A stretch of 64,000 bases of DNA from Candidatus Desulfofervidus auxilii (GTDB lineage Bacteria; Desulfobacterota; Desulfofervidia; Desulfofervidales; Desulfofervidaceae): assembly GCA_030262725.1 (NCBI GenBank), contig JAJSZS010000010.1:1-64000 (forward strand), given 5' to 3'. Both the position numbers and the translations under genes were made by a program. Shown piece after piece: positions 22,861-28,453 of the stretch; the first letter of the stretch is position 1, and every line of letters begins with the position of its first letter. The notes below the pieces were generated by a model, which did not search any database, was not told where the DNA came from, and saw only the letters and a program-made list of their open reading frames with translations.

Positions 22861-23426
22861 AATTTATTTATTATTTCTAAAATTTCCTTTAACCTTTTGA
22901 TCCTTTTTCCTACCTTTACATAACGATTCCATGGTTGATCATAGACAAAGATCTTCATTTTAGGCATTTCCATAGCAATTTTTGTAATTACATCAGGTCT
23001 ATCTTCTACAAAAAAGCACTTATGGCTATTTACGCAATAATTTATCTTTTCTTGAGGATTTGTAACAATGAGTTGATCAAAATAAAAGTCATTATTTTTT
23101 AACCAATAAAAAGTAAGCTCACGCAAATAAGGAGGACGCGCTGTCACAAAAATAATTTTCCATCCTGCCTTACTTAAAATCTCTGTTACTTTAGCTGCAT
23201 CAGGCATAGGAGGGATATTAATATAAAAATCTGGTTGGGTAAATTTTGTTAAAAGGAATTCTATTTCAAATTCATTGAGCCAAGAAAGACGAGTAATTTC
23301 ATATTCAGTAATGTCTTCTATTCTTACCCAAGGTTTATTTAACTCTTTTTGAACTATCTCTATCATAGCTGTGCCTGTATCCGCCACTACACCATCTATA
23401 TCAAAAAAACCAATTTTCTCTTTCAT
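22857..23426 (-). CDS. HAD-superfamily phosphatase (deoxyribonucleotidase-like)
   Basis: A 189-residue HAD enzyme. Motif I is FDIDGVVAD near residue 8, motif II VTARP near 95 and motif III FVEDRPDV near 138. The small cap and size resemble the 5'(3')-deoxyribonucleotidase-like NagD-independent group. It overlaps trpD and the ROK kinase gene by four bases each. The substrate is unknown; the trp context may be coincidental. Confidence 0.78.
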   Translation of the reverse strand: MKEKIGFFDIDGVVADTGTAMIEIVQKELNKPWVRIEDITEYEITRLSWLNEFEIEFLLTKFTQPDFYINIPPMPDAAKVTEILSKAGWKIIFVTARPPYLRELTFYWLKNNDFYFDQLIVTNPQEKINYCVNSHKCFFVEDRPDVITKIAMEMPKMKIFVYDQPWNRYVKVGKRIKRLKEILEIINKL

Positions 23427-24436
23427 TTTGCCATTTTTATCAATTTCTCTAATTTTTCATAAGCCTTTTTACTCTTTATAACCTCTTTAGCCAAATCAAT
23501 ACCATCTTCCCAATTTTTAACTAAATTAGTGATTTTAAATACAGCCGCTGCATTAAGCAACACCATATCATATTTTGCTCCTTTTTCTTTATCTAAAAGA
23601 ATATCTTTTAATAATTGAGCATTATATTCTCTATCCTTACCTTTTATTTCCTCTTCAGAAGCTATATTTAAACCAAAAGATTTTGGGTTAATTTCATATT
23701 CAAATATTTCTCCTTCCTTTAATTCAGCAATATATGTTTTTCCTGTAATTGTAATTTCATCATATCCACCTTCACCATGAACAATCATAGCCCCCTTTAA
23801 ACCTAAATTTTTTGAAACATGAGCTAATGGAGAAAGCCATTTTTTATCATATACTCCTATTACTTGATGGGTAGTTTTTGCTGGGTTGGTAAGAGGACCT
23901 AAAATATTAAAAATTGTGCGTAATCCCAATTCTCTTCTAGGAGAAAGGGCATATTTCATGGCTGGATGAAACTTTGGGGCAAAAAGGAATCCTATACCTA
24001 TTTCATCAATGCACCTTGCTACTTTTTTTATATCTAATTCTAAATTTATACCCAAAGCCTCAATGACATCAGCACTCCCACAATGGCTTGAGACAGAACG
24101 GTTCCCATGTTTAGCTACCTTTAATCCAGCTCCCGCTACAACAAAGGCAGTAACTGTTGAGACATTAAAAGTATTCTTTCCATCACCTCCAGTGCCACAT
24201 GTATCTACTAAAGGTTTATCTCTTTTAACTTCTATTTTATATGCCTTATCCCTTATAACCTTTGCTGCAGATGTAATCTCAGTTATTGTCTCACCTTTCA
24301 TACGTAATGCTACTAAAAATGCACCAATTTGGGCTGGTGTAGCCTTTCCTTCCATTATGGCTGACATAAAATAAGTCATCTCATCCTTATCTAAATCCTT
24401 ACCTTCAACTAATTTCCCCAAAATACCCTTTAACAT
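23423..24436 (-). CDS. trpD: anthranilate phosphoribosyltransferase
   Basis: A 337-residue TrpD, the second step of tryptophan synthesis, joining anthranilate and PRPP. The PRPP site GTGGDGKNTFNVST, the KHGNRSVSS anthranilate site and NILGPLTNPA are conserved. It lies one gene after trpG, separated by a VKOR-type gene, and starts eight bases after that gene's stop. trpB, trpA, trpC and trpF are not in this window. Confidence 0.95.
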   Translation of the reverse strand: MLKGILGKLVEGKDLDKDEMTYFMSAIMEGKATPAQIGAFLVALRMKGETITEITSAAKVIRDKAYKIEVKRDKPLVDTCGTGGDGKNTFNVSTVTAFVVAGAGLKVAKHGNRSVSSHCGSADVIEALGINLELDIKKVARCIDEIGIGFLFAPKFHPAMKYALSPRRELGLRTIFNILGPLTNPAKTTHQVIGVYDKKWLSPLAHVSKNLGLKGAMIVHGEGGYDEITITGKTYIAELKEGEIFEYEINPKSFGLNIASEEEIKGKDREYNAQLLKDILLDKEKGAKYDMVLLNAAAVFKITNLVKNWEDGIDLAKEVIKSKKAYEKLEKLIKMAK

Positions 24437-24444
24437 AATACCTC

Positions 24445-25236
24445 CTATTTGCAGGTATTAAGACCACAAGTTCCTTGTGGTTGATAAAAAAACAGTTCAG
24501 GAAATTGTTTCTTTTCTATCCCTTGCAAAATACACTGCTCTCCTACAAAGATTTCTTTTTTTCCTTTTTCCTCTATCAAAAGCACAGGTACTTCTTTTAT
24601 CCCTAATTTTTTAAGTAAAAAAGAACATCTTTCTGCTTCACAGACATAAAGTTTTAAATCTCCTTTATAATGATTTAAAAAATAATTAAGTAATTTTTTA
24701 CAATGTGGACAATTTTCCTTTACAAAAAGATACCATTTATCTTTTGGATTACCTTTTATATAGCAAATTTTTGCCATTTCTTCTAAAGTGCCTGTCATTG
24801 GCAAAATCAAATAAGTAGCAAATATTACCATAATAAGGCTTACTATGCCTGCTAATGCTGTAAGGCGATGATAGGTAAAGAGATAAATCAGAGTAATGAT
24901 TAAAAAAAGAGTGCCAACAATAAGACAAAAGCTACATAAATGAGAAAGGAAAAAAAATTGAATTCCTATTAAATAACCCTCAACAGAAAGCACACCAATT
25001 AAAATAATATCTATTATAGGAAATAGATTCCTTTTTTTAGATAAAAAAAATAATAAAGAAAGAACTAGAAATATAGTTGTTCCAATAATCAATATAAAAT
25101 TTTCATTACGAGCTAAACCCATAGCAAGTTGGCATCCTTCAGTTTGACATATAGATTTACCCTGTTGTTTGAGAAATAGTTCCAATATAATAAAAAATGC
25201 CCCAAAAAGATTTAATCCAATAAGTATGCGTCTCAT
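24445..25236 (-). CDS. VKOR-thioredoxin fusion (vitamin K epoxide reductase family)
   Basis: A 263-residue membrane protein. Four or five hydrophobic segments hold the loop cysteines CQTEGC (about residues 30-36) and the active-site CSFC (near 100). A periplasmic thioredoxin-like domain with NCPHCKKL (near 175) and VPVLL follows, ending in a Cys-rich tail. VKOR fusions pass disulfide electrons to quinone and catalyse disulfide formation, replacing DsbB/DsbA. It overlaps trpG by four bases and precedes trpD by eight, so it is embedded in the trp operon. Confidence 0.87.
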
Positions 25237-25799
25237 TTTAGATTTAAAAAATTTTCAAGTAATTTTAAACCATCTTCTGTAAGAATGGACTCAGGATGAA
25301 ATTGTACCCCTTCTATTGTATATTCTTTATGACGAATGCCCATAATTTCATCATCTTCACTTATAGCACTAACTTCTAAACAGGAAGGTAAACTTTGTCT
25401 TTCAACAGCAAGAGAATGGTATCTAGTGGCAATAAATGGATTTTTTAACCCTTTGTAAATAGTTTTTTCATCATGAAATATATTTGAAGTCTTCCCATGC
25501 ATAATATGCTTTGCCTGAATAATTCGACCCCCAAAGGCAGCAGCAATAGACTGATGTCCCAAACATACACCAAGAATAGGAATTTTTCCAGCAAAATGTC
25601 GAATAGCTTCTATAGAAATACCTGCCTTCTCAGGTGTACAAGGACCAGGTGAAATAACTAAATAATCTGGTTTTAAATCTTCTAATTCTTTTATCTTTAT
25701 TTGATCATTTCTAAAAACTGTTACTTTTTTACCAAGCACTTCGAAATACTGAACCAAATTATAAGTGAATGAATCATAATTATCTATAACTACTAACAT
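25233..25799 (-). CDS. trpG: anthranilate synthase glutamine amidotransferase subunit
   Basis: A 188-residue class I amidotransferase. The nucleophile Cys is in [15 protein letters not shown] near residue 79, and the His/Glu pair in [13 protein letters not shown] near 170. It supplies ammonia from glutamine to TrpE; the same protein may also serve PabB. It starts nine bases after trpE and overlaps the VKOR gene. Confidence 0.94.
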
Positions 25800-25808
25800 A
25801 TCTTACTC

Positions 25809-27278
25809 CTAAAGACCATTTTTCGTCCATTCTATTGCTTTTAACATTGCTTTAGCCTTATTTATAGTTTCTTCATATTCTCTTTGAGGTATTGAATCTG
25901 CTACAATACCTGCACCTACTTGAATATAAAGCTTATTTTTCCAAGCAACAATTGTGCGAATAGTAATACAAAAATCCATCTCTCCAGAAAAACTAAAATA
26001 ACCTACTGCTCCAGCATAAGGCCCTCTTTTAGTAGGTTCAAGTTCTTCAATAATTTCCATTGCCCTTACTTTTGGTGCTCCACTTACTGTACCAGCAGGA
26101 AATGTAGCTTTTAAAACCGTAAAAGCATCTTCACCTTTTTTTAATTCTCCAATTACATTAGAAACAATATGCATAACATGAGAATATCTTTCAATAACCA
26201 TTAATTCTGTAACTTTTACACTGCCTCCTTTTGCTACTCTTCCAACATCATTTCTTCCTAAATCTACTAACATAATATGTTCGGCTCTTTCCTTTGGATC
26301 GGCCAAAAGTTCTTTTTCTAAAGCCTTATCCTCTTCTTCTGTTTTTCCCCTAGGTCTTGTACCAGCAATAGGACGTACTGTAATAATATCTTTTTCAAGC
26401 CTTACTAATATTTCAGGTGAAGCCCCTATTAATTTTAATTCTCCAAAATTTAAATAAAACATATATGGAGAAGGATTGAGACTTCTTAAAGCTCGATAAA
26501 TACTAAAATCCTCTCCTTCAAAATCCACTTCTAATCTCTGCGAAAGCACAACCTGAATAGCATCACCTGCTATAATATAATCCCGTGCTTTTTTAACTGC
26601 TTCCATAAAACTAGATGGAGTGAAATTGGATTTTACTTCTGAAAGAATGAAAAGAGAAGTAGGATATTTTAAAGGAGAAGCTAGACAATCTATTCTTGAT
26701 TCAATACGTTTTTTAGCTTCATTATAGAGAAATTCAGCATTTTTTCCTTCTTCTATTAATACAAAATTAACTATTTTCATTTTATGACTGACATGATCAA
26801 AAATAATTAATTCTTGTGGTAAAACAAATATAGCCTCAGGAATATTTGTGTCTTTTTTAGAAATTGAGGGAAGTCTTTCCCAACAACGCACAACATCATA
26901 AGAAAAATATCCTACAAGTCCTCCTTGAAAACGAGGAAGTCCTGCTACCTTGGCTAAGCGAAATGTAGAGAGAATTTGTCTTAAGATGGGGAGTGGGTCA
27001 TTTACTTGCAAAAACTTTTTTTCTTTTTCTTTTTGCTTAATTTTTATTTCTGGAATTTCATAAAAAACAATAAGAAGTGGATTTAAACCAATAAAGCTAT
27101 AACGACCGAATCTTTCTCCTCTTTCAACACTTTCTAAAAGAAATGAAAAACCTTTATCTTTTAGCTTTAAATAAGTTGATACTGGTGTTTCAATATCTGC
27201 TAATAATTCTTTATAAACAGGAACAAGATTATACTCTTTGGCTAGTGTTTTAAATTCCTCAATTCCTGGTATAAACAT
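25809..27278 (-). CDS. trpE: anthranilate synthase component I
   Basis: A 489-residue Trp[18 protein letters not shown] near residue 45 contains the LLES motif that binds feedback tryptophan. The catalytic C-terminus has [22 protein letters not shown], and [17 protein letters not shown]. It makes anthranilate from chorismate. The ATG follows GGAGGAAAAA and lies directly below the attenuator terminator, so expression is set by tryptophanyl-tRNA supply as well as by enzyme inhibition. Confidence 0.95.
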
Positions 27279-27290
27279 TTTTTCCTCCTA

Positions 27291-27320
27291 AATAAAAAAG
27301 CCGTGGTTTGCCACGGCTTT
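27291..27320 (-). terminator. trp attenuator terminator hairpin
   Basis: Arms 27311-27320 and 27297-27306 form a perfect 10-bp stem (AAAGCCGTGG / CCACGGCTTT) with a four-base loop. On the transcript a run of U follows. It ends about ten bases before the trpE ribosome binding site, so it is an intrinsic terminator located within the leader. Confidence 0.88.
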
Positions 27321-27420
27321 AAATGAATTAAGCCGTGGGCTACTGCTATGGAGCAACCCACGGCTTTCTTATATTTTATAGTGGTGGGCTCACTCCATAG
27401 CAGTCCGGAGGAGCCACCAC
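27297..27420 (-). promoter_or_regulatory. trp leader RNA with mutually exclusive hairpins (attenuator)
   Basis: Three stems lie in transcript order. Stem a pairs 27411-27420 with 27381-27391. Stem b pairs 27357-27366 with 27330-27339. Stem c is the terminator, 27311-27320 with 27297-27306. Two alternatives compete. The b 3' arm (27330-27338) can instead pair with the c 5' arm (27311-27319) over nine bases, forming an antiterminator. The loop of stem a (27393-27404) is exactly complementary over 12 bases to the loop of stem b (27342-27353). Ribosome position on the Trp codons would select between these forms. Confidence 0.85.
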
Positions 27421-27437
27421 CAATAATTTAACATCAT
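27390..27437 (-). CDS. trpL: trp leader peptide with three tandem Trp codons
   Basis: A 15-codon frame encodes MMLNYWWWLLRTAME, with three consecutive TGG codons at 27422-27414 inside the 5' arm of stem a. The stop lies in the 3' arm of that stem. The promoter at 27444-27472 predicts transcription starting at 27437, so this ATG would be leaderless. Further in-frame ATGs at 27446 and 27443 would add MMG but overlap the -10. The tandem Trp codons plus the downstream terminator identify a classical translation-dependent attenuator. Confidence 0.85.
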   Translation of the reverse strand: MMLNYWWWLLRTAME

Positions 27438-27443
27438 GCCCAT

Positions 27444-27472
27444 CATATAACTTAGTCTTTTTAAAAAGTCAA
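27444..27472 (-). promoter_or_regulatory. trp operon promoter
   Basis: TTGACT (27472-27467) and TATATG (27449-27444) are separated by exactly 17 bases. Six bases lie between the -10 and 27437, so the predicted +1 is the A of the leader ATG. The promoter starts 15 bases after the stop of the preceding DHH gene, making independent initiation likely. Confidence 0.6.
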
Positions 27473-27487
27473 TTCTATTAAATGAAT

Positions 27488-28453
27488 TTAACTATTTTTT
27501 TCATTAATTTTGTTTTTTAAAATAGCAATAATCTCCTCTGCAATTTTTTGTGCTTCAGAAGCCTCATCTACATTGATTCCTCCTGCTGTAGGATGACCAC
27601 CACCTCCATAATTAGCACAGATTTTTCCTATATTAATAGAATGAATATTTTTCTCCCAAGGATTAGCACTGACTATAATCATATAACGACCACTTTGCAT
27701 TGCAAGAATACCTACTACATAAAGGCATTCTGGATAGAAATAATAAGGTGCCCAACGGCATGTTAAAAATCTTTGTGGCATACTGAAAAAAACAATTCTA
27801 TTTTCTGGGTCAAAAATAGCATTTTTTTGAAACTCTTGTAATATTTCATTGCGCATTTTTTTTGCTCTTTCAAAACGCCATTCTACAATTAAAGGTAGAG
27901 GTATTTTTGAAGAAATGAGCTGATCTTTGTATTGAAAGAATAAACGTGCAAGTTCTATTAAATAAGCATTATCTCCTTCTATACCTAAAGAAAGATGAAT
28001 TTTAAGTGGTTTTTCTTTACAAGTTATAAGTTCTTCTAAAGAGAATCTAGCACTATCTATTTTATCTGCCCACATTACCAATTCTTTAAAATTTAAATTG
28101 CGATAAGAAAAAACATCATAAAGCACTTCCCATATAAGTAAAGCACAAGAAGATTTTTTTGGGTCAAAAAAGTGCCGACTTGGTTCAAGTGGCCCTTCAT
28201 AGTTATTTAAGCCAGTTTGATGGTGATCAAACCAATATGTTGCCTGAGGATGGAAGATATAGTCTAAAACAAAGCTTATATCTCCTTTTAATGTAGTTTT
28301 TGTCCAATTGTTTTTTAAACCATAGCCTACAGGGAAAAATTTTATTTGAGAAGGAGACCATTTTTCTTTAACATAATCAGCGATTAAAGCAGCAGAAACT
28401 ATCCCATCAAAATCACGATGGAAATAAATGGCAATTTCCTTCTGTTCCATCAC
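27488..28453 (-). CDS. DHH-family phosphoesterase
   Basis: A 321-residue DHH/DHHA1 protein. FHRDFDG holds the first Asp pair, FVLDYIF the third, WFDHHQTG the DHH motif, and GGGGHPTAGGI the substrate-binding DHHA1 loop. It belongs to the NrnA/RecJ-like superfamily that cleaves short RNAs or cyclic dinucleotides; the substrate cannot be named. It is transcribed from its own divergent gap (28454-28571) and ends 15 bases before the trp promoter. Confidence 0.85.
   Translation of the reverse strand: MMEQKEIAIYFHRDFDGIVSAALIADYVKEKWSPSQIKFFPVGYGLKNNWTKTTLKGDISFVLDYIFHPQATYWFDHHQTGLNNYEGPLEPSRHFFDPKKSSCALLIWEVLYDVFSYRNLNFKELVMWADKIDSARFSLEELITCKEKPLKIHLSLGIEGDNAYLIELARLFFQYKDQLISSKIPLPLIVEWRFERAKKMRNEILQEFQKNAIFDPENRIVFFSMPQRFLTCRWAPYYFYPECLYVVGILAMQSGRYMIIVSANPWEKNIHSINIGKICANYGGGGHPTAGGINVDEASEAQKIAEEIIAILKNKINEKNS

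Follow-up and report, generated by a model that had tools for sequence, protein, structure and literature searches.

The leader upstream of trpE in the window (the 64,000-nucleotide stretch of Candidatus Desulfofervidus auxilii contig JAJSZS010000010.1 that was analyzed) very probably specifies a ribosome-mediated transcription attenuator of trpE-trpG-trpD, arranged in six segments like the his leader. We assign this reading a probability of about 0.92, based on sequence elements, conservation and predicted energetics. On the minus strand, the leader is flanked upstream by a DHH-family gene (27488-28453) and downstream by trpE; its features and the regulated genes are as follows, in the direction of transcription.

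27467-27472, minus strand: -35 box, TTGACT; the TTGAC core is at the same position in the relatives G001, G003 and G004
27444-27449, minus strand: -10 box, TATATG, 17 bp past the -35 box
27390-27437, minus strand: leader peptide ORF, MMLNYWWWLLRTAME, probably leaderless; WWW is kept in G001, G003 and G004
27414-27422, minus strand: three Trp codons, TGGTGGTGG, the putative control codons within segment 1; invariant alignment columns
27379-27422, minus strand: hairpin 1:2 (stem a), overlapping the leader ORF; from folding and the family alignment
27384-27404, minus strand: segment 2 of the 2:3 antiterminator helix, containing the loop 27393-27404
27342-27361, minus strand: segment 3 of the 2:3 helix, containing the loop 27342-27353
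27330-27366, minus strand: hairpin 3:4 (stem b), the predicted pre-emptor; from folding and the family alignment
27330-27340, minus strand: segment 4, predicted to pair with segment 5 once freed
27310-27319, minus strand: segment 5, the 5′ arm of the terminator
27294-27320, minus strand: intrinsic terminator 5:6 with its U run; from folding and the family alignment
27284-27289, minus strand: Shine-Dalgarno site of trpE, AGGAGG, from sequence reading
25809-27278, minus strand: trpE, anthranilate synthase component I, the first regulated gene; TIGR00564 above cut-off
25233-25799, minus strand: trpG, glutamine amidotransferase subunit; TIGR00566 above cut-off
23423-24436, minus strand: trpD, anthranilate phosphoribosyltransferase; TIGR01245 above cut-off

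All elements named in a preliminary description of this DNA were recovered. The short frame carries three consecutive TGG codons (27422-27414), a U run (27299-27294) comes after the 10-bp terminator ahead of trpE (stem 27320-27297, CAAA loop), and the competing stem b is present as hairpin 3:4 (27366-27330), with a 9-base alternative pairing between 27338-27330 and 27319-27311. The 12-base complement between the loops of stem a (27404-27393, ACTGCTATGGAG) and stem b (27353-27342, CTCCATAGCAGT) is likewise exact. That description took the loop-loop step to differ from textbook 2:3 pairing, which was not supported: the 12 complementary bases make up the core of a helix of 20 bp in which the stem arms join (27404-27384 with 27361-27342, with one bulged G at 27391), and which consists of 27404-27392 paired with 27354-27342, then 27390-27384 paired with 27361-27355. 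One strand of this helix draws on the 3′ arm of stem a and the other on the 5′ arm of stem b, which makes it a conventional 2:3 antiterminator. A difference from the textbook leader does remain, in the extra hairpin (six segments rather than four) and in the probable leaderless start. The six segments form five helices in two exclusive sets, 1:2, 3:4 and 5:6 versus 2:3 and 4:5. The fold had a z-score of -6.84, with 0 of 200 shuffles equally stable, and the AAGCCGTGG...CCACGGCTT hairpin occurred at two sites in the 2.27-Mb genome, both within the leader.

The leader ORF ends in TGA (27392-27390) and probably starts at ATG 27437, 6 nt from the -10 box. A longer version from ATG 27446 was discarded because that ATG lies inside the -10 box. 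The sequence leads us to expect transcription to start at or adjacent to ATG 27437. With predicted promoters, the gap between -10 box and ATG was 5-6 nt in four species (the window, G001, G003 and G004). Of 59 leaders whose promoter could be recognised, 28 had a gap of 6-10 nt to the start codon and 24 one of 23-41 nt, while other ATGs of the same regions, used as a control, gave no peak at 6-10 nt; spacings for the window and for L002 were taken from direct sequence reading. A start codon 6-10 nt past the -10 box, as in the window and many relatives, would imply a leaderless peptide, and transcription of the short-gap leaders, the window included, would begin at or adjacent to the AUG.

The Trp codons and the 2:3 pairing, on whose conservation the preliminary description had staked its model, are kept in G001, G003 and G004, which belong to the same family and have TrpE proteins 68-74% identical. 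Their leader peptides are MLIGENWWWAL, MFGLCWWWALQMAME and MLKIRNWWWLLQGAME, respectively, and they share the hairpins and promoter spacing of the window. Across the four species, 92% of cells were paired in the terminated state and 90% in the antiterminated state, versus 27%-56% with slid partners. Compensatory pairs numbered 4 in the terminated and 5 in the antiterminated state; with only four sequences aligned they are weak alone, and those of the antiterminated state were not clearly above shuffles. A Trp-rich ORF was not found upstream of trpE in G005, of the same order.

To simulate the switch, transcripts reaching as far as segment 5 were folded in a quasi-equilibrium calculation that hid all sequence 5′ of the ribosome leading edge. 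Whichever of the three Trp codons the ribosome occupied, the probability of the 4:5 helix, P(4:5), was 0.86-1.00 in the four species; with the ribosome at the stop codon it was 0.00 in all four, and without a ribosome 0.00-0.13. When the ribosome edge was shifted in 2-nt steps, the window gave a sharp antitermination zone 18-40 nt from the ATG, which holds the Trp-stall positions and leaves out the start and stop positions, and the outcome was insensitive to the exact ribosome footprint. Equilibrium folding of the full-length leader, segment 6 included, was replaced by this prefix folding since it did not discriminate: the terminator always won, so that the switch depends on the order of synthesis. 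The same folding applied to the E. coli his leader yielded these two helix sets as well.

Regulation would then proceed as follows. Transcription would begin at or adjacent to the leader AUG, and a ribosome would load without a Shine-Dalgarno site. With Trp-tRNA scarce, it would stall on UGG UGG UGG and cover segment 1, leaving segment 2 free to take segment 3 on emergence (20 bp) and so prevent 3:4; segment 4 would then pair with segment 5, block terminator 5:6 and allow trpE to be transcribed. With ample Trp, a ribosome at the UGA would cover segment 2, hairpins 3:4 and then 5:6 would form, and transcription would end. It would also end without translation, when 1:2, 3:4 and 5:6 could all form. 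In the model, ribosome position sets the choice between a terminator and a mutually exclusive antiterminator, and the predicted helices (1:2, 3:4, 5:6 versus 2:3, 4:5) have the his-type layout; the conserved WWW in the short ORF before trpE is the cluster of codons for the pathway's own amino acid that would be expected of such a leader. Ribosome-mediated attenuation of trpE, the hairpin roles and the order of events, all proposed in the preliminary description, are supported by conservation, mispairing controls and folding simulations.

In a survey of 210 trpE loci, a tandem-Trp leader ORF was found at 74, versus 8 of 210 reverse complements; Desulfobacterota accounted for 130 loci, the window among them, and 63 of these had a Trp-rich tandem leader ORF. 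The hairpin scan of the relatives was anchored on U-tracts, and 42 of the 74 leaders had two tandem hairpins, each with its own U-tract. P(4:5) had a median, over 40 tandem leaders, of 0.99 with the ribosome stalled and 0.08 with it at the stop, and only 20 of the 40 fell within both strict limits. A leader's own 2:3 and 4:5 duplexes exceeded mispaired ones in strength, a difference matched by 0 of 5000 permutations with or without GC bins; for 4:5 after dereplication with GC bins the figure was 2 of 5000. The control pairing 3:6, to which the model gives no function, also exceeded its mispairs, by less. Part of the 4:5 signal therefore comes from shared stem sequence, and the strength of own over mispaired 4:5 duplexes was rejected as proof for this reason.

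The same control bears on a different view of the leaders, in which 3:4 is the regulated terminator of a four-segment attenuator, 5:6 a backup or duplicate, and 4:5 an accident of shared stems. For the relatives this is the main rival: most tandem leaders have a separate U-tract after 3:4, several relatives have only one terminator, and the 3:6 pairing shows that the hairpin stems have sequence in common. Its case is weaker for the window: there the sequence after 3:4, CTTAATTCATTT, makes a poor U-tract, and the good one belongs to 5:6. Moreover, an unregulated 5:6 would always block trpE, and the excess of own over mispaired duplexes is larger for 4:5 than for 3:6; we consider this reading improbable.

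Two further possibilities seem to us highly improbable. Trp operons are elsewhere controlled by a TrpR operator, TRAP or a T-box, with which the hairpins would be a constitutive terminator, but the Trp codons are kept in a short ORF, and the genome, which is 99.99% complete, gave no match to Trp_repressor, TrpBP or T-box in searches whose controls were positive; TrpR is rare in the phylum, the cut-off being passed in 14 of 394 genomes. Equally, the hairpins could be ordinary terminators of the DHH-family gene, which is co-directional and stops 50 nt short of the leader ATG, and the ORF a chance occurrence. This would have to accommodate a predicted promoter between that gene and the hairpins, the conservation of the Trp codons, 2:3, 4:5 and spacing, and the rarity of such ORFs in control sequence (8/210).

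Six-segment attenuation by a ribosome on Trp codons is the preferred reading, and the mechanism itself is of a known kind. The his leader of E. coli and Salmonella (Rfam His_leader RF00514) likewise sets three hairpins against two alternative helices and has an extra hairpin before the terminator (PMC1183508). The window leader differs from it in that it would sense Trp rather than His and in its probable leaderless start, and in most relatives a U-tract follows the middle hairpin as well. With the E. coli trp leader (Rfam Trp_leader RF00513) the window leader shares tandem UGG codons in a short peptide before trpE and the logic of 1:2, 2:3 and terminator; it differs in the extra hairpin and the 4:5 step, with six segments not four, in having three UGG codons rather than two, and in belonging to a genome with no TrpR match. 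The trpL of Sinorhizobium meliloti is leaderless, with RNA starting at the leader ATG, and attenuates trpE (PMC7298713); it probably resembles the window leader in start and in trpE attenuation, although its start has been mapped, that of the window is predicted, and the phylum is another one. The trp attenuators of Corynebacterium and Streptomyces, outside the gammaproteobacteria, have a double or triple UGG leader, a terminator and an antiterminator (PMC1262725); these too are from another phylum and are described as classical.

The Rfam search proposed in the preliminary description matched no leader family, either in the window or among 20 relatives. In the window no leader family appeared even at E values up to 10, matches far below threshold being taken as chance, and at the gathering threshold none was found in the relatives, neither Trp_leader RF00513 nor His_leader RF00514. 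The combination of trp regulation, six segments, a probable leaderless start and, in the relatives, tandem U-tract hairpins is unmatched by Rfam in the window and these 20 relatives. No prior report of trp attenuation in Desulfobacterota was found in the literature searched, which mostly excluded subscription papers. The window leader and its relatives indicate that trp attenuators occur in many Desulfobacterota families and are missed by Rfam models.

It is possible, though we put the odds somewhat against it, that these leaders form an undescribed phylum-wide class in Desulfobacterota, with an often leaderless Trp peptide and two tandem terminators locked together by 4:5, both disarmed by one stalled ribosome. 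If so, the class would be a low-leak, repressor-free design, and it would contradict a survey with Rfam models that suggested a gammaproteobacterial origin of amino-acid attenuators and few transfers (PMC3766115). From a kinetic model, Elf and Ehrenberg proposed that the extra his hairpin lowers basal read-through where attenuation alone controls (PMC1183508), and a trp operon with an extra hairpin, in a genome where TrpR was not found, fits that proposal.

The gene order downstream of the leader is trpE, trpG, a thioredoxin-like gene and trpD. The third of these (24445-25236, minus strand) is membrane-protein-like with a weak thioredoxin match; it overlaps the end of trpG and so would share the trpE attenuator. 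The trp genes of the genome are spread over at least two places: trpB is on a separate contig (G000:C6:100053-101198, L211), directly after another coding sequence, and no Trp leader was found immediately upstream of it.

Leaders in the survey varied in both RNA and peptide. Only a single U-tract hairpin was seen upstream of trpE at L013, L043, L125, L129 and L134, so the phylum has four-segment as well as six-segment trp leaders; with both one and two downstream hairpins represented, the idea about the extra hairpin can be tested by comparison. Trp-Cys-Trp-Trp replaces Trp-Trp-Trp upstream of trpE at L015, L023, L032, L039, L115, L116, L118, L122, L123, L130, L135, L147, L149, L151 and L175, and the recurring Cys codon may have a part in RNA pairing or contribute a Cys signal. 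Outside the phylum, L077 (Dehalococcoidia) has a Trp-Trp-Trp leader and one strong U-tract hairpin before trpE; 207 nt separate the trpE match from the first Trp codon, which lies upstream.
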